Shown here: one piece after another, positions 12,786-49,770 of the stretch
Layout of the letters: every line of letters begins with the position of its first letter
Numbering within the stretch: the stretch's first letter is position 1
Assembly (NCBI GenBank): GCA_003222395.1
Contig: QHWB01000040.1
Coordinates: 570,488-634,487, forward strand
Source: Acidobacteriota bacterium
GTDB taxonomy: Bacteria; Acidobacteriota; Vicinamibacteria; Vicinamibacterales; CAVVIG01
Direction of reading: 5' to 3'
Length of the DNA stretch: 64,000 nucleotides
Program-made: the position numbers and the translations under genes
The notes under the pieces: model-generated
Databases searched by the model: none
Told to the model about the DNA's origin: nothing
What the model saw: only the letters and a program-made list of their open reading frames with translations

Positions 12786-13225
12786 CAAGTACGGCGGCCA
12801 GCAATTTCTGGACGGCGGGTCCCCTTGCGCTCGTCAACGTCTTCGACGCGGGACGGCGCCGCGCGGTCAAAGAGCAGGCGCTCGCGTCGTACGACCAGGC
12901 CGCCGCGTCGTACCGGGAATCGGTGCTGGCGGCGTTCCGCGAAGTGGAAGATCAGCTGTCGACGCTGCACGTTCTCGACGAGGAGGCCGCGATTCAGGCG
13001 AACGCCGTCGCCGCGTCGGAGCGATCGCTGACGCTCGCCAACAATCGCTATCGCGGCGGCGTGACCAGCTATTTCGAGGTGATCACCGCCCAGCAGGCGG
13101 CGCTCGCGAACGAGCGTGCAGCCGTCAACATCCTGATCCGCCGCATGAACGCGACGTTGCTGCTGCTCAAAGGGCTGGGCGGCGGCTGGAACGTGTCGAT
13201 GCTGCCGGCGATCTCCACACGGTAG
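12786..13225 (+). pseudogene. Outer-membrane efflux factor (OprM/NodT type), 3' fragment
   Basis: The frame reads ASNFWTAGPLALVNVFDAGR, then REVEDQLSTLHVLDEEA, TLANNRYRGGVTSYFEVITA and MNATLLLLKGLGGGW. This is the final third of an RND-type outer-membrane channel (last barrel strands, coiled coil and C-terminus). No start codon or signal peptide exists, because the sequence begins where the divergent GIY-YIG gene starts, so about 300 N-terminal residues are lost. A complete but different TolC-type gene lies at 17.0-18.3 kb. Confidence 0.72.
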
Positions 13226-13318
13226 CGCGAGCCTTTCAGGCGAGCGCGAGCCTTTCAGAAGAGCGCGAGCCTTTCAGGCGAGCGCGAGCCTTTCAGAAGA
13301 GCGCGAGCCTTTCAGGTG
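13224..13318. repeat. Five tandem 19-base units (family B core)
   Basis: GCGCGAGCCTTTCAG is repeated five times with an exact 19-base period, and the last four bases alternate GCGA, AAGA, GCGA, AAGA, GTGA. The core is the same as in the family B palindromes elsewhere in the window (23004, 27152, 30695, 59550). It fills the gap between the efflux-factor remnant and the alcohol dehydrogenase gene. There are no spacers of varying sequence, so it is not CRISPR. Confidence 0.9.
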
Positions 13319-13390
13319 AGCGATGCCGCGGCACGAGCCGTCAGGGCGAGCGCGTCAGTTCCCCGAGTCACGTTAGACTACCGGGACACC

Positions 13391-28281: not shown

Positions 28282-30029
28282 TGAGCGCTATCGTTGGTAG
28301 GCGCCGACCAGTGGGTCGGCCCGGTCGCGCATGTCGGCGCGGAGAGGCACGCGAACCGCGGCGGACGCGCTGGTCCGCCCCTATTGCGATCTTGTTGTTG
28401 ATGATGAGCGCTCCCCTATCCGCTCAGATGAAAGCGATCCGCGCCGGGCGCCTCGTCGACGGGTCGGGTAAAGTCGTCGCGAACGCCGTGATCCTGATCG
28501 ATCGCGATCGAATCACGTCTGTCGGCGCGAGCGCTCCGCCAGCCGGCGCCGAGGTGATCGATTTGAGCCGCTTCACTCTGGTGCCGGGGCTCATCGATGT
28601 CCACACGCACATGACCTATTACTGGGACGGCGCGCCTGGCACGCGTCCGCTCGGACAGCCGCGGCGTCCCGCCGGCGTCACGACGGTGCTCGCGGCGGAG
28701 AACGCACGGCGCACGCTCGAGACCGGCGTGACGACGATTCGCGATCTCGGCGCCAGCAACGAAGTCGATTACGCCATGCGCGACCTGATCAACATGGGGA
28801 AGATGGTTGGACCGCGGATGTTCGTCGCCGGCCAGGGACTGTCCGCCGGACGCGGCGGTCCACCCGATCCGGGCGCGTTTCGAGAGCAGGCCGAAGCGCG
28901 TCTCGCCGCCGGATCGGACTGGGTGAAAATCTTCGGTTCGCGCGGCAGCTTCCAAAGCGTCGAGACGACGCAGACCGTGCCCTTCGAGGCGATGAAGGCC
29001 GTCGTCGACGCGGCGCATGCGAAGGGACGTCGCGTGGCGATTCATTCGTACGGTCCATCGGGCGTGAAGGACGCTGTCCGCGCCGGCGCCGACTCGGTCG
29101 AGCACGGCATCGACCTCGACGACGAAACGATCGCCGAGATGGTGAAGCGCGGAACGGTGTGGGTTCCGACGATCGATCACAACCGCTACTACGTCGACGC
29201 GAAGGACGAGTACGGTTTCGCGCCCGACACGATTCCGCCGCTGCAGGAGTACATCGAGAAGAACCTCGAGTCGGCGAAGCGTGCGGTGAGGGCCGGCGTG
29301 AAGATCGCGATGGGATCGGATGCGGTTTACACGATGTTCGGCCAGAACACGCGTGAGCTCGGATGGTTCGTGAGGGCCGGGATGACGCCGGCGCAGGCGC
29401 TCGCCTCGGCGACGACGATCCCCGCGGCGCTGCTGGGTCACGAGAAGGATCTGGGTGCGATCGCGCCCGGCTACCTCGCCGACATCGTCGCCGTCGACGG
29501 CGACCCGCTCGCCGACGTGAACGCGCTGATCAACGGTGTCCGCTGGGTGATGAAAGACGGGCAGGTGGTTGTCGACGGGCGGTCGGGTGGGTCAGGTCGG
29601 TCGAGTGGGTCGGGTGGGGCAGGCAGGTTGGGTGGGTTGGATCGGGAGGTTCAGAGCGTCGTCGAAGCGTTCCTGCTGCACCTCGGCGATCACGAATGGG
29701 ACAAGGTGGCGGCGGATCTCGCGCCGAACGCGATGATCGTCGTCACGCGCCAGCGACCGGGAGAGACCGACTGGACGAACTCCTACCAGACGCGCGACGA
29801 ATGGCTCGCGTCGCTGCGCCGCAATCCGAACCCGACGACGTTTCGCGAGCCGATCACGAACGTCCAGGTGACCGTCGACAGCGATCACCTCGCGTACCTG
29901 CGCGCCGACTTTCAGGTGATGCGCGACGGCGCCGCGCAGTCGCACGGCGTCGATCAATTCACGCTCGTGCGCGAAGGCGGCGCGTGGAAGATCGCGATCG
30001 TCGCCTACACGTCGATGCCCCTCAGGTGA
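28278..30029 (+). CDS. Secreted amidohydrolase fused to a SnoaL-like domain
   Basis: 583 residues. Residues 50-430 are an imidazolonepropionase-like amidohydrolase: GLIDVHTHMTYYWDG (metal His pair), WVKIFGSRG (bridging Lys), VAIHSYG, SVEHGIDLDD and MGSDAVYTMFG. Residues 455-583 (VQSVVEAFLLHLGDHEWDKV ... YTSMPLR) resemble a SnoaL/DUF4440 domain. The joining segment is Gly/Ser/Arg-rich and is encoded by a G-rich array. The signal-peptide core (IAILLLMMSAPLSAQ) is preceded by about 31 residues encoded by a family C repeat. If that extension is translated, export may be affected. Substrate unknown. Confidence 0.87.
   Translation: MMSAIVGRRRPVGRPGRACRRGEAREPRRTRWSAPIAILLLMMSAPLSAQMKAIRAGRLVDGSGKVVANAVILIDRDRITSVGASAPPAGAEVIDLSRFTLVPGLIDVHTHMTYYWDGAPGTRPLGQPRRPAGVTTVLAAENARRTLETGVTTIRDLGASNEVDYAMRDLINMGKMVGPRMFVAGQGLSAGRGGPPDPGAFREQAEARLAAGSDWVKIFGSRGSFQSVETTQTVPFEAMKAVVDAAHAKGRRVAIHSYGPSGVKDAVRAGADSVEHGIDLDDETIAEMVKRGTVWVPTIDHNRYYVDAKDEYGFAPDTIPPLQEYIEKNLESAKRAVRAGVKIAMGSDAVYTMFGQNTRELGWFVRAGMTPAQALASATTIPAALLGHEKDLGAIAPGYLADIVAVDGDPLADVNALINGVRWVMKDGQVVVDGRSGGSGRSSGSGGAGRLGGLDREVQSVVEAFLLHLGDHEWDKVAADLAPNAMIVVTRQRPGETDWTNSYQTRDEWLASLRRNPNPTTFREPITNVQVTVDSDHLAYLRADFQVMRDGAAQSHGVDQFTLVREGGAWKIAIVAYTSMPLR
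28297..28384. repeat. Family C hairpin element within the amidohydrolase 5' end
   Basis: Ends GTAGGCGCCGACC (28297) and GGTCCGCCCCTAT (28372-28384), with inner GTGGGTCGGCCC. It is in frame with the gene and encodes an Arg-rich run ending TRWSAP. The 12-base word ATGATGAGCGCT occurs on both sides (28278-28289 and 28401-28412). Confidence 0.72.
29576..29646. repeat. G-rich degenerate array inside the amidohydrolase gene
   Basis: About 70 bases built from GGTCGGGTGGGTCAGGTCGG-like words with a 5-10 base period. Its translation is the Gly/Ser/Arg linker between the amidohydrolase and SnoaL-like domains. The array resembles those at 40833-40960 and, on the other strand, 41515-41595. Confidence 0.8.
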
Positions 30030-40061: not shown

Positions 40062-40835
40062 GTGCAGATCACCAGACGCCGCTTCAGCGGAATTCTCGGC
40101 AGCGCCGCTGCATCGTGCGCGTTCGGCGCCGCGTGCCGGCTGGAAAGCCGGCCGACGCAGCCGAACGACGGGAGGCTGACCGTCGTCCTGCGCGCCGGCG
40201 TCGCGACATCGGTCGAAGGAACACGCCCGCTCGGGATCGAGCGCGGACGCGACGGGCTCCTTCAGCTGCCCGGCAACGCTGCGAGCGCTCAACTGCCGCT
40301 GCTGATCGTGCTGCACGGCGCCAACGGCAGCGGCGAAGGGATGCTGCGCCGAATCGGATCGGCGGCCAGTGCGGCCGGTGTCGCCGTGCTCGCGCCCGAC
40401 TCGCGCGAGTCGACGTGGGACGGCGTGAGAGACGGCTTCGGACGCGACGTCGTCTTCCTCGATCGCGCGCTGGCGCGCGTATTCGACACCGTGTCGGTCG
40501 ATCCGACGCGCATCGCGGTCGGCGGCTTCTCCGACGGCGCGACCTACGCGCTCTCGCTCGGATTGATCAACGGCGATCTCTTCCGCCGCGTGGCCGCCTT
40601 CTCGCCCGGATTCATCGTCGACGGTCCGCCCCACGGCAAGCCGCAGTTCTTCATCTCACACGGCACCGCCGACCCCATCCTGCCGATCGATCAGTGCAGT
40701 CGCACAATCGTTCCTCTCTTGCGCAGACGGGGCTACGACGTCACGTTTCGGGAATTCCAGGGCGGTCACACCGTGCCGGCGGAAATCGCGACAGATGCCC
40801 TGCGTTGGATCGCAGGGACGGAAAGGGCGGGATAG
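40062..40835 (+). CDS. Tat-exported alpha/beta hydrolase (PHB depolymerase/esterase type)
   Basis: 257 residues. The N-terminus has a twin-arginine signal (TRRRFSGILGSAAASCAFGA, then AC). A Cys at 25 could be a lipidation site. LPLLIVLHGANGSGEGM carries the oxyanion strand, Ser 157 the nucleophile elbow (GGFSDGAT), Asp near 205 (HGTADPILPI) and His near 236 (QGGHTVP) complete the triad. Family members hydrolyse polyhydroxybutyrate, feruloyl or acetyl esters. The GTG at 40062 has only a weak upstream AGGA. Confidence 0.85.
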   Translation: MQITRRRFSGILGSAAASCAFGAACRLESRPTQPNDGRLTVVLRAGVATSVEGTRPLGIERGRDGLLQLPGNAASAQLPLLIVLHGANGSGEGMLRRIGSAASAAGVAVLAPDSRESTWDGVRDGFGRDVVFLDRALARVFDTVSVDPTRIAVGGFSDGATYALSLGLINGDLFRRVAAFSPGFIVDGPPHGKPQFFISHGTADPILPIDQCSRTIVPLLRRRGYDVTFREFQGGHTVPAEIATDALRWIAGTERAG

Positions 40836-40960
40836 CGGGACGGGCGGACGGGCGGACGGGCGGGAGCGGCAGGACGGGCGGGCAGGCGGGAGGGGCAGGA
40901 CGGACGGGACAGGCGGGACGGGCGGGACAGGCGGGACAGGCGGGATCGGCCACAAGAAGA
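40833..40960. repeat. G-rich tandem array upstream of the four-helix-bundle gene
   Basis: About 125 bases of GGCGGGAC, GGCGGACG and GGCAGGAC words, starting inside the esterase stop codon region and ending GGCGGGACAGGCGGGATCGG. The repeat period is about 8-9 bases. The G-runs could form G-quadruplexes on the plus strand. 40961-41077 contains a partial inverted repeat (GTAGGTAGTTCC at 40966 and GGAACCTACCTC at 41029). Confidence 0.85.
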
Positions 40961-41077
40961 TCGGGTAGGTAGTTCCCGGATGGGTAGGAAGTCACACCTC
41001 CTCCAAACCGTCCTACTGGAAATTCGAGGAACCTACCTCAACGCCCCTGGCAGAATCGTTGAATCGTCTTTTCGGTT

Positions 41078-41503
41078 ATGCAGAAGCTGCGGCATCACTC
41101 GCTCGTTGCGTGGCAACGCGCGGACGATCTGTTCATCAGCGTTCACAAACTCACGCTTCGATCGTTTCCACTGCTCGAGCGCTTTGAGCTCAGCTCGCAG
41201 TCAAGAAAGGCCGCGTACTCGGTCGCAGCGAACATCGTCGAAGGGTTCGCGCGCCGCCACAAACGAGAACGTCTCCGTTTCTTGAACATCTCGGAAGGCT
41301 CGCTCGCGGAAGTCGGCTACTGCCTTCACGTCGCGCATCGACTTGGTTACATCAACGAGAACACGCTTGCGGAGTTCGAGCGTGAACTGAACGGCGTCGG
41401 TGCTCCGCTGACCGGTCTTATTCACTCGGTGCGAATTTCGAAGGATGTCGTTTTCGGCGCTGTCTTCATCTTCGGGTTCGTGCTTGGGCGCTGGATCTTT
41501 TAA
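41078..41503 (+). CDS. Four-helix-bundle protein (23S rRNA intervening-sequence family)
   Basis: 141 residues. KLRHHSLVAWQRADDLFISV, FPLLERFELSSQSRKAAYSV, AANIVEGFARR and FLNISEGSLAEVGYCLHVAH are the four helices of the S23/bIVP family. It was first seen inside 23S rRNA genes but is usually a free-standing gene of unknown function, and is related to the Avd protein of diversity-generating retroelements. The last 15 residues (FGAVFIFGFVLGRWIF) are hydrophobic and unlike the family. The gene is enclosed by G/C-rich arrays of opposite orientation. No reverse transcriptase is near. Confidence 0.88.
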   Translation: MQKLRHHSLVAWQRADDLFISVHKLTLRSFPLLERFELSSQSRKAAYSVAANIVEGFARRHKRERLRFLNISEGSLAEVGYCLHVAHRLGYINENTLAEFERELNGVGAPLTGLIHSVRISKDVVFGAVFIFGFVLGRWIF

Positions 41504-41514
41504 GGTCAGTCACG

Positions 41515-41595
41515 TTTCTGCCCTCCTGCCCTCCTGCCCTCCTGCCCTTCCCGCCCTTCCCGCCCTTCCCGCCCTCCTGCCCTTCCTGCCCTACT
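41515..41595. repeat. C-rich tandem array downstream of the four-helix-bundle gene
   Basis: Units CTGCCCTC and CCGCCCTT repeated about nine times. On the minus strand this is a strong G-quadruplex candidate made of GGGCGGGAAGGGCGGG-like runs. It is the inverted counterpart of the upstream array and touches the stop codon of the second ADOP permease. Confidence 0.88.
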
Positions 41596-44071
41596 CATAT
41601 CGCAGCGCGATCATCGGATCGATCCTGGTTGCGCGAAGCGCCGGCAGATAGCTCGCGCCGAGCGCCGCCACCGCGAGCAGCGCCGGAACGGCGACGAACG
41701 TGACGAGATCGGTCGGGCTCACGTTGAACAGCAGCGTCGCGACCAGCCGCGTCACCGCGAGCGAGACGGCCAGGCCGACGATCACGCCGGCGATCGTGAG
41801 CCGAAGTCCCTGCAGGACGACGAGCCGCACGACGTCGGCGCGGCCGGCGCCGAGCGCCATCCGGATGCCGAGCTCGCGCGTGCGCTGGCTGACCGAGTAC
41901 GCCATGACGCCGTAGATGCCGATGACGGCGAGCACCAATGACAGGCCGGCGAATACGGCGAGCAGCCACGCGCCCATGCGCGGCGCCCACAGCGACTGAT
42001 CGAAGATCTCGTTCAGCGTGAACACGCCGGTCAGCGGCAGATTGCGATCCAGCTGCTGCACCTCGCCGCGCACCGTCCCGATGACCGCCTGCGGGTTCGG
42101 CGCCTTCACGAACAGCGACAGCTGCGGCTGGTACACCTGTGTCGTGGCCTGATAGATGTAGGGCGTCGGATCCTCGCCGATGAAGTTGTACTTGCTGTCC
42201 CTCGCAATGCCGACCACCTGCTGAAAATTGTCCTGGCCGAAGAACTTGAACCGTTTCCCGATCGCGTCCTGATCGGGCCAGAACCTCTTCGCCATCGTCT
42301 CGTTGATGACGACGGCCGACGGCGTGTTGGGCTGATCGATCTCCGATGTCGGTCGCCCGCGCACGAGCGCGATGCCCAGCGTCTCAAGGTAATGCGAGCT
42401 GGCCACGGCGATCTGGACAAGGCGGCCTGCTCGGCGGTCCGACGCGTCCTGCCCTTCGAGGAACACGGTGCGCGCGAAGCCGCCAGCAAAGAGCGGCACG
42501 GTGCTCGCGAGCGTGGCCGACTGCACGCCGGGGACCGAGGCCGCGCGCTCGAGCACGCGCTGCTGGAACTGTCGTCCACGCTCTTCCGTGTAGCCCTGCG
42601 CGCCGAGATCGAACGACATCGTCGCGAGCCGCTCCACGTCGAAGCCAGGATTGATTCTCTGCGCGTTCTGCAGGCTGCGCAGGAACAAGCCGGCGCCGAT
42701 CAGGGCGATGAGCGACAGCGCGATCTGCGCCGCGACCAGGACGTTGCGGAGGCTCAACGGACTCCGCGATCCTGTCGGCGCGCTCGTCTTCTCCTTCAAC
42801 TCGACGACCAGATCCGGCCGCGACGCCTGAATGGCCGGTGCGAGCCCGAACAGGACGCCGGTTGCCAGCGCGATCCCGAGCGTGAACAGCAGGACGCGCG
42901 CGTCCGGGTGAATGTCGATCGCGTCTGCCTGCAGGAACGGCGGACGGAACGACCACAGGACGTCCTGCGCCCAGTACGCGAGCATCAGGCCCGCTGCGCC
43001 GCCGACGACCGCGAGCAGCGTGCCCTCCGTGAGCAGCTGCCGAATCAACTGAGCGCGCGTCGCGCCGAGCGACAGGCGGACCGCGATTTCCTTCTGGCGC
43101 GCGGCCGCGCGCGCGAGCAGCAGATTGGCCACGTTCGCGCACGCGATGAGCAGCACGAGCGCCACGATCGTCATCAGCAGCCCGCCCGCGGCGACGATGT
43201 TGCCGCGGAAGCCGGGATTGATCGTCGCCTGCGCGAGCGGCACGAGCGTCACGTTGCGACCCTTGTTGTCGTTCGGGTATTCCTGCTCGAGCTGACGGGC
43301 GAGCGTTTTCAGATTCGCTTCGGCCTGGCGCACCGACACACCGGGTTTCAACCGACCCGTCACATTGAACACGAGACCGCGGCGCTGATCGGGCCGAATC
43401 AATTCGAGGAAGAAGCCGGTCGTCGTCTGCTGGTACGTCATGTACGGAACCCACACTGCCGGAGCGCCGATTGCGTTGGTCCCCTTGAATCCCTTCGGCA
43501 TCACGCCGACGACGGTGAACTGCCGGCCGTTCAGTGAAATCGTCCGGCCGACGATCGAGGGCTCGCCGCCGAACCGCTTCTGCCATTCGCCGTAGCCGAG
43601 CACGCACACCAGCTTCGCTCCCGGCTTCTGATCTTCGTCGGGCAGGAAGCCGCGGCCGATCGCCGGCTTCGCGCCGAGCACGCTGAAATAGTTGCCTGTG
43701 ACGATTTCGCCGAACACCTGCTGTGGATCGCCCGTGCCGCCGGTGATGTTCAGCGGCAGCCCCGCGTGCGCGGCGATCCCCGAGAACACCTCGTTCTTGT
43801 CGCGCAGGTCCTTGTAATTCATCGGGGACGTCTGCAGGAATCCAAACCCGAATCCGCCGCTCCGATTGAGCTCGTCGGTCGTCCACACGCTCACCAACTG
43901 AGACGGATCCTCGACCGGCAGCGGGTTCAGGAGGACGGCGTTGATGAGCGTGAAGATGGTCGTGTTGGCGCCGATGCCGAGCGCCAGAGAGAGCGCGGCG
44001 ATGAGCGTAAACCCGGGCGTCTTGAGCAGCAGGCGCGCGCCATACCGCAAATCCTGCAGGAGCGTGGACAT
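41591..44071 (-). CDS. ADOP-type ABC transporter permease (MacB/FtsX domains), second copy
   Basis: 826 residues from the ATG at 44071 (STLLQDLRYGARLLLKTPGF). First membrane helix LIAALSLALGIGANTTIFTL, periplasmic domain with FLPDEDQKPGAKLVCVLGYG, FtsX helices with ANVANLLLARAAARQKEIAV, a second periplasmic domain and a final FtsX block (AYSVSQRTRELGIRMALGAG) ending RIDPMIALRYE. Unlike the first copy it lacks the helical prefix. An in-frame ATG 12 codons upstream is less likely, since the family starts at M-S/T-L. No ATPase gene is adjacent. The end lies in the C-rich array. Confidence 0.9.
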   Translation of the reverse strand: MSTLLQDLRYGARLLLKTPGFTLIAALSLALGIGANTTIFTLINAVLLNPLPVEDPSQLVSVWTTDELNRSGGFGFGFLQTSPMNYKDLRDKNEVFSGIAAHAGLPLNITGGTGDPQQVFGEIVTGNYFSVLGAKPAIGRGFLPDEDQKPGAKLVCVLGYGEWQKRFGGEPSIVGRTISLNGRQFTVVGVMPKGFKGTNAIGAPAVWVPYMTYQQTTTGFFLELIRPDQRRGLVFNVTGRLKPGVSVRQAEANLKTLARQLEQEYPNDNKGRNVTLVPLAQATINPGFRGNIVAAGGLLMTIVALVLLIACANVANLLLARAAARQKEIAVRLSLGATRAQLIRQLLTEGTLLAVVGGAAGLMLAYWAQDVLWSFRPPFLQADAIDIHPDARVLLFTLGIALATGVLFGLAPAIQASRPDLVVELKEKTSAPTGSRSPLSLRNVLVAAQIALSLIALIGAGLFLRSLQNAQRINPGFDVERLATMSFDLGAQGYTEERGRQFQQRVLERAASVPGVQSATLASTVPLFAGGFARTVFLEGQDASDRRAGRLVQIAVASSHYLETLGIALVRGRPTSEIDQPNTPSAVVINETMAKRFWPDQDAIGKRFKFFGQDNFQQVVGIARDSKYNFIGEDPTPYIYQATTQVYQPQLSLFVKAPNPQAVIGTVRGEVQQLDRNLPLTGVFTLNEIFDQSLWAPRMGAWLLAVFAGLSLVLAVIGIYGVMAYSVSQRTRELGIRMALGAGRADVVRLVVLQGLRLTIAGVIVGLAVSLAVTRLVATLLFNVSPTDLVTFVAVPALLAVAALGASYLPALRATRIDPMIALRYE

Positions 44072-44146
44072 CCGGGGCAGGATCGCAGAATTGCGGGACG
44101 GCAGCAAGACAATGCCGCCGTCCCATGGTCGGTCGGCGTCCGCGAT

Positions 44147-49517: not shown

Positions 49518-49740
49518 TTAACGCGTGGGGCCCCACCCCCACGCGCAGACGCGCTCGCGGCGTAAACCGCTCGCGCGTATTTAGAACAGAACGTCACCAC
49601 GCCCCACCACGGCGCCCGACCCGGCTCGCGGCGTAAACCGCTCGCGCGTATTTAGAACAGAATGTCACCACGCCCCACCACGGCGCCCGACCCGGCTCGC
49701 GGCGTAAACCGCTCGCGCGTATTTGGAACAGAACGTCACC
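49518..49740 (-). repeat. Family A intergenic element, copy c, with three tandem left halves
   Basis: On the minus strand the left half (GTGACGTTCTGTTCTAAATA ... CGCGCGAGCGGTTTACGCC) is repeated three times with a 71-base period (CGTAAACCGCTCGCGCGTAT on the plus strand at 49561, 49632, 49703). A short right half follows, GCGCGTGGGGGTGGGGCCCC and ACGCGTTAA, ending at 49518. The aminotransferase start codon is 42 bases further on the same strand. Confidence 0.85.
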
Positions 49741-49770
49741 AATCAGTCATGGAACTCGGCCCGGCGGGAA

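Follow-up and report, generated by a model that had tools for sequence, protein, structure and literature searches.

The DNA analysed here, called the window throughout, is a stretch of 64,000 nucleotides from an Acidobacteriota bacterium (assembly GCA_003222395.1, contig QHWB01000040.1, positions 570,488 to 634,487). It carries a small gene (41078..41503, + strand) for a 141-residue four-helix-bundle protein of the S23, or 23S-rRNA-IVP, family, which is framed by two arrays of short repeats in inverse orientation. The protein matched both PF05635 (101.3 bits, cut-off 33.8) and TIGR02436 (99.8 bits, cut-off 24), its only Pfam domains were 23S_rRNA_IVP and bAvd, and a profile built from 15 S23 proteins matched PDB entries 2gsc and 2rld. 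The 5' arm (40833..40945, + strand) is a G-rich array with the 9-bp unit GGCRGGANN, detected by Tandem Repeats Finder (40835-40945) and by pattern matches. The 3' arm (41518..41592, - strand), also reported by Tandem Repeats Finder, is C-rich on the + strand and consists of the reverse complement of the same unit type. Together, the 5' arm, the S23 gene and the 3' arm form an element of about 760 bp (40833..41592, + strand). Three consecutive units (GGCRGGANNx3, at most 3 mismatches) were matched 12 times in the window, nine times on the + strand in the left array and three times on the - strand in the right array, where shuffled sequences lead one to expect 0.04 matches. Alignment of the upstream flank with the reverse complement of the downstream flank gave an inverted-alignment score of 27.0; the median of same-locus controls at other S23 loci was 10. 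Two host genes converge on the S23 gene: an alpha/beta-hydrolase (40062..40835, + strand, Pfam/NCBIfam profile match), whose stop codon falls within the first repeat of the 5' arm, and an ADOP-family permease (41591..44107, - strand, TIGR03434, 956 bits, start codon uncertain), whose TAG stop at 41591 abuts the 3' arm. A first-pass annotation of this DNA had described a four-helix-bundle gene framed by inverted G-rich and C-rich arrays between the 3' ends of two convergent genes, and this anatomy was confirmed; the repeat unit, given there as eight letters, has a true period of 9 bp.

The same genome contained six PF05635 matches, all six of which were flanked by inverted arrays (BLAST of the surroundings and inspection of sequences), with inverted-alignment scores of 23.5 to 37.5. 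The arm units were 7-9 bp long and mostly distinct for each S23 gene: by eye, AGCTGTC (L075), GGGCAAA (L076), an ATTGCTG-like unit (L077), GGGATTT (L078), GGGTAATT (L079) and the 9-mer of the window. Two of these units were also counted across the genome: GGCRGGANNx3 was found 86 times, compared with 4 for the same pattern read backwards, and the L075 unit 204 times, compared with 0. Among 40 genomes searched, GGCRGGANNx3 was present in 13 (own genome included), all of them in the same family; in one relative (G019) the backwards control pattern was matched and the GGCRGGA pattern was not. Across relatives, GGCRGGA counts bore no clear relation to the presence of window-type S23. Some of these arrays were inverted pairs without S23, and others lay in frame within open reading frames (ORFs). 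The idea that G-rich arrays merely trail stop codons, so that an inverted pair is a chance product of convergent genes, was dropped because it fits the window, but neither S23 genes within operons nor the matched arms at all six loci of this genome.

Inverted flanks proved to be a general property of S23 genes. For each gene, the 500 bp upstream were aligned to the 500 bp downstream in reverse complement, and a score of at least 14 was considered positive. The broad set comprised the best 80 of 576 confirmed candidates, ranked by similarity to alignment A2, minus 4 with short flanks, and therefore leans to canonical S23 proteins. In this set, 57 of 76 loci were positive, compared with 4 of 126 same-locus position controls and 20 of 760 pairs with swapped flanks, and the record titles of the positive loci span, in our own reading, about a dozen phylum-level names. 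Within the phylum of the window, where S23 and ParE sets were each the best-scoring 30 loci, one per genome, 28 of 29 S23 loci were positive (one removed for N) versus 2 of 30 ParE control loci. Positive loci also accounted for 13 of 15 in family relatives (one more removed for N and three contig-limited loci left out), 18 of 20 in genus g65 (the other two scored 12 and 13.5), 22 of 27 in twelve broad-set genomes searched whole (three skipped; nine of the 27 were already in the broad set) and all eight cyanobacterial plasmid loci, which were chosen from 26 records with a match and include two identical loci. When these loci were pooled, with two duplicates and the short-flank and N-flank loci removed, 118 of 142 were positive. 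PF05635 itself occurred in 78 of 149 genomes sampled from the phylum, in up to 17 copies, and was absent from 14 well-known control genomes; among the matches listed, six g65 genomes had 5 to 17 copies.

The arms shared several features. In 90 sufficiently long arms the best period was 7 in 50, 14 in 14, 8 in 16, 9 in 9 and 15 in 1; thus, 64 of 90 had a period of 7 or 14, and 7 is the usual unit length. The upstream arm had a positive G-skew in 109 of 118 loci and a negative one in 8 (background pieces were positive in 58%). Two genomes of the same phylum had hairpins of a different kind, with arms resembling CACAGAGACACGGAG (L363:8361-8591 and L392:17313-17431); these showed little G-skew (-0.12 and 0.09).

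The arm unit appeared to be matched to the S23 protein. We compared S23 loci pairwise, leaving aside 13 pairs whose flanks are homologous (the pairs are not independent of one another). Where the proteins were at least 65% identical, 11 of 22 pairs shared an arm unit; the figures were 20 of 332 at 55-65%, 51 of 1981 at 45-55%, 24 of 2138 at 35-45%, 3 of 943 at 25-35% and, under 25%, 7 of 349. We also scanned 464 kb of the own genome (20 stretches picked by position, plus the window) for hairpins and found 32 inverted pairs, nine of them tandem-armed. Six of these nine matched an arm of one of its own S23 genes at a threshold of 15, which was fixed after the scores had been seen, whereas random six-locus sets averaged 0.29 matches and none of 2000 draws reached six. 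The first-pass annotation had held that arrays occurring in the genome without the gene would speak against a mobile unit. Such arrays do occur, so that the statement is literally true of this genome, but they do not refute mobility, since most of the S23-free hairpins sampled match an S23 arm of the genome they lie in. A scan for arm-like stretches pointed in the same direction: all five own arms (window arm excluded) were matched in the own genome, compared with 4 of 40 foreign arms, and in a second genome, G164, 4 of 9 own arms versus 2 of 40 foreign arms, although some of the latter genome's matches may belong to its S23 genes outside the nine compared.

Insertion sites could be followed in G164, which has 17 S23 genes. 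Several of its elements lie between pairs of genes that were identified by Pfam matches: L240 separates dehydrogenase E1 alpha from transketolase-like E1 beta, L242 a histidine kinase from a response regulator, L244 Clp protease from ClpX, and L246 asparaginase from CinA. Two others are flanked by ScpB (L247) and ThiG (L248) on one side, the opposite sides being read by eye as rluB and thiS, respectively. The clpP-clpX junction was matched in 40 of 41 genomes of the genus of G164, and 30 loci among the matches listed were examined. An S23 element of 462-487 bp was present in three. Ten others carried a hairpin of 65-218 bp with no S23 match, equalled by at most 1 of 100 mononucleotide shuffles; by eye, nine of these ten hairpins were heptameric and one (L286) was not. 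Eight junctions were bare (at most 22 bp), one had a weak hairpin (2 of 100 shuffles) and eight had 35-64 bp with no significant hairpin. G196, whose flanks are 91-93% identical to those of G164, had a hairpin without S23; judged by eye, the unit of this hairpin is similar to the arms of a different S23 gene of G164 (L241). Separately, L243 and L249 appear to be the same S23 site in two species: identity is 77-81% for the flanking DNA and 69% for the S23 proteins, with arm units that have diverged.

We also examined the neighbours of the window element in relatives. Eleven hydrolase homologues (10 of the 14 loci listed in addition to the own one, and that of G040, at 77%) had no adjoining S23 match; at one of these homologous loci (L350) a hairpin of a different unit was seen by eye. 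The S23 homologue of G040 adjoins an ADOP permease 81% identical to that of the window over 826 residues, its hydrolase being on a different contig, and is perhaps located at the same site. The closest S23 homologues in G007, G009, G010 (at a contig end) and G019 had no adjoining match to the window neighbours. Inverted arrays were scored as present around the homologues of G040, G007 and G009, and in G019, where the flank contains Ns, they were recognised by eye only. Homologues at the same locus without arrays, which the first-pass annotation had named as evidence against a mobile cassette, were thus not seen among the five closest homologues, three of which were scored and all three had arrays.

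Cyanobacterial plasmids provided further examples. Plasmids of Anabaena sp. 90 and Pseudanabaena galeata have an S23 gene between cas6 and cas4, surrounded by inverted arrays (scores 28.0 and 30.5). In Nostoc edaphicum it lies between ribonucleotide reductase genes and in Calothrix PCC 7716 between two secretion genes, antisense in both cases. Plasmid loci of note are L332, L333, L334, L336 and L337, and in L332, L333 and L337 the S23 gene is antisense to both neighbours.

In-frame G-rich arrays inside ORFs were observed at L052:7431-7577 and also in L051, L056, L058, L059 and L062. In L052 both arms are translated and lie within a linker of a penicillin amidase (PF01804). We rejected this array as a clean empty site because the linker that holds it differs among aligned relatives; its presence in a variable linker shows tolerance and nothing more. 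The window itself has a short 9-bp G-rich array (GGTCGGGTG) at 29581-29637, within a predicted gene (28398-30029), that resembles by eye the S23 arm unit of relatives. Other tandem repeats in the window are a 71-bp unit at 49553-49741 (2.7 copies, 97% alike) and a 19/38-bp unit at 13224-13322 (90-98% alike).

Taken together, these comparisons suggest that the window element probably belongs to a widespread class of small, mobile hairpin elements, in which S23 serves as a helper of the hairpin of its own unit. Mobility of the S23 hairpin units is well supported, and the possibly mobile unit with inverted repetitive ends that had been proposed for this locus extends far beyond it. The anatomy of the element, its generality, the coexistence of full, solo and bare sites and the matching between S23 and arm unit all emerge from sequence comparison. 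In a typical element, the first arm would be G-rich and built of 7-9-bp units, the loop would hold an S23 (PF05635) gene, and the second arm would be the inverse complement of the first. Most likely, each S23 protein recognises hairpins built from its own type of unit, and we infer that it acts in trans, aiding the copying or insertion of the hairpin elsewhere by means of enzymes that the host uses for replication or repair. S23-free hairpins of like unit in the same genome would be served as well, as REPINs supposedly are by RAYT (REP-associated tyrosine transposase). Insertions would persist where harm is small: behind the stop codon of a gene, between the genes of an operon, in protein linkers that tolerate them and in rRNA loops, as in the 23S intervening sequence (IVS). 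No nuclease was identified for S23 elements. A broader proposal, which we offer as plausible yet tentative, is that S23/IVP proteins are helpers of bacterium-wide hairpin mobile elements that have no known transposase, integrase or reverse transcriptase, with IVSs and the G-rich heptamers of cyanobacteria and xanthomonads as special cases.

A number of observations weigh against this interpretation. The window S23 protein had no nuclease, recombinase or transposase domain in Pfam, and no clear target-site duplication was seen by eye at clpP-clpX, the one junction inspected for it. Two of the three S23 elements at clpP-clpX had degenerate arms (scores 12 and 11.5), and 19 of the 76 broad-set loci had no clear inverted flank. 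The overall rank correlation between protein and arm similarity was small (0.095, a value that 3 of 500 permutations attained), and a de novo scan of 400 kb of G164 gave a single hairpin, which matched none of the S23 arms compared (9 of 17). Mismatches in the arms showed no G.U preference (142 of G.U type versus 157 of A.C type; 53 versus 92 when only the broad set is counted), which lends no support to selection on an RNA stem. Many S23 loci are located on contigs of metagenome-assembled genomes, and related loci are not independent. Finally, with the window S23 protein as query no match was found in G002 or G017, both of which contain arrays (20 GGCRGGA matches in G002, a 100% complete genome, and 80 in G017, 87% complete), implying that arrays can arise, or be retained, where no helper is recognisable. 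Arrays in these two genomes may be orphans, or the helper gene may have been missed or lost.

The last point bears on the alternative that survives best, namely that the hairpins are independent dispersed repeats spread by host replication errors and that S23 lands or is tolerated in them without acting. Arrays without S23 are indeed common, also in genomes with no S23 match, and at clpP-clpX the S23-free hairpins outnumber the S23 elements, 10 to 3 of 30 junctions. Against it, similar S23 proteins at unrelated sites frequently have common arm units (half of the pairs in the highest identity class), and hairpins and arm-like stretches match S23 arms of their own genome better than foreign ones. 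We therefore consider this alternative unlikely.

The first-pass annotation had also linked the S23 family to retroelement helpers, and S23 elements might accordingly be retroelements, with S23, as an Avd relative, and a reverse transcriptase acting in trans to copy the transcribed hairpin. PF05635 is related to Avd of diversity-generating retroelements according to PMC10053308, and the window protein scored 33.0 bits against DivGenRetAVD, below the cut-off of 80. By longest-ORF calls, S23 and its upstream gene shared a strand at 63 of the 76 broad-set loci, 23 of the 29 in the phylum and 19 of the 20 in g65, but at only 3 of 6 loci of the own genome, and ParE controls were co-oriented in 18 of 28. 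Moreover, S23 was antisense to both neighbours in 3 of 8 cyanobacterial plasmid loci (Nostoc edaphicum, Calothrix PCC 7716 and Stanieria). No RVT_1 lies beside the window gene, the three RVT_1 matches of this genome being on contigs C96 and C8 and not on C14. Of 12 genomes with 3-17 S23 genes, six had no RVT_1 match, other reverse transcriptase families not having been sought; these six include G164, with 17 S23 genes, and the single-contig G027, with 10. Reverse transcription is therefore unlikely as the general route, the retroelement explanation as a whole appears very improbable to us, and the proposed link is unsupported; the earlier interpretation stands in part, for its inverted-ended mobile unit and not for its retroelement connection. 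Similarly remote is a fixed regulatory or RNA-processing device, such as an RNase III stem, around immobile genes whose copies are old duplications: the arms do pair in the predicted RNA fold of the window element (-341.6 kcal/mol, z -2.79, equalled by 1 of 20 shuffles) and RNase III cuts such a stem in the rRNA case (PMC4990558), but close species lack S23 at the same junction, copy number varies from 5 to 17 among g65 genomes, S23-free hairpins exist and the arms have no G.U preference.

A mobile hairpin with an S23 helper can be compared with several known systems. Like the window element, the 23S rRNA IVS of Leptospira and Coxiella has an S23-family ORF in the loop of an inverted-ended hairpin, but it sits in rRNA, whereas the window element sits between protein genes. 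Short IVSs without an ORF also exist. An Rfam scan of 20 other S23 loci (window not included) gave no rRNA match. In Coxiella, as described in PMC4990558, the IVS has a 28-bp terminal inverted-repeat stem with S23 in the loop and tandem heptamers (GACAGAT) ahead of S23. The same source reports that transposition or mobility of IVSs was proposed earlier, that XCC0516 (2gsc) is a toroidal homopentamer of four-helix bundles and that the function of S23 is unknown.

The nearest working analogue, by comparison of organisation, is the REPIN/RAYT system. REPINs are dispersed inverted doublets predicted to form hairpins and tied to specific nearby genes (PMC3116915). Like S23 hairpins, they are scattered over the genome, and their repeat corresponds to one that is linked to a gene there. 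However, RAYT is a transposase and the window S23 has no transposase domain in Pfam, and S23 arms differ from REPINs in being tandem 7-9-bp arrays of variable length with units that differ among S23 genes.

Heptameric G-rich arrays (GGGNATC and GGGGA(C/T)T) near stop codons have been described in Xanthomonas and Nostoc, two Xanthomonas strains having 70 and 75 convergent inverted pairs (Rehm 2015, PMC4692102). There the repeats were handled as G-quadruplexes generally not found with mobile elements, and the term S23 is absent from the text. The arm unit of a Luteimonas S23 gene (L115) is GGGAATC, and that of a Dokdonella gene (L105) is the similar GGGATTC. The class proposed here seems to include both the S23-bearing rRNA IVSs and the Xanthomonas and Nostoc heptamers, an identity that we infer from these resemblances. 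Zhang 2013 (PMC3936711) reported that 18 S23 genes lie in cas loci, frequently together with Cas4 and/or Cas6, and listed S23 among CRISPR-Cas-associated functions, whereas we read the cas6-S23-cas4 loci as insertions. In the open-access papers searched we found none joining S23 genes to flanking heptamer hairpins in general.

PF05635 is a common family that was named after the rRNA insertion in which it was first observed. The present comparison supplies S23 with a context and with a testable partner, its flanking hairpin. It also offers a single origin for three puzzles: the ORFs in rRNA IVSs, the heptameric repeats of bacteria and the occurrence of S23 in cas loci. If S23 does move hairpins without a known nuclease, this would be a new mechanism. 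The presence of S23 hairpins in many bacterial phyla suggests that they represent a widespread, previously unrecognised kind of mobile element.
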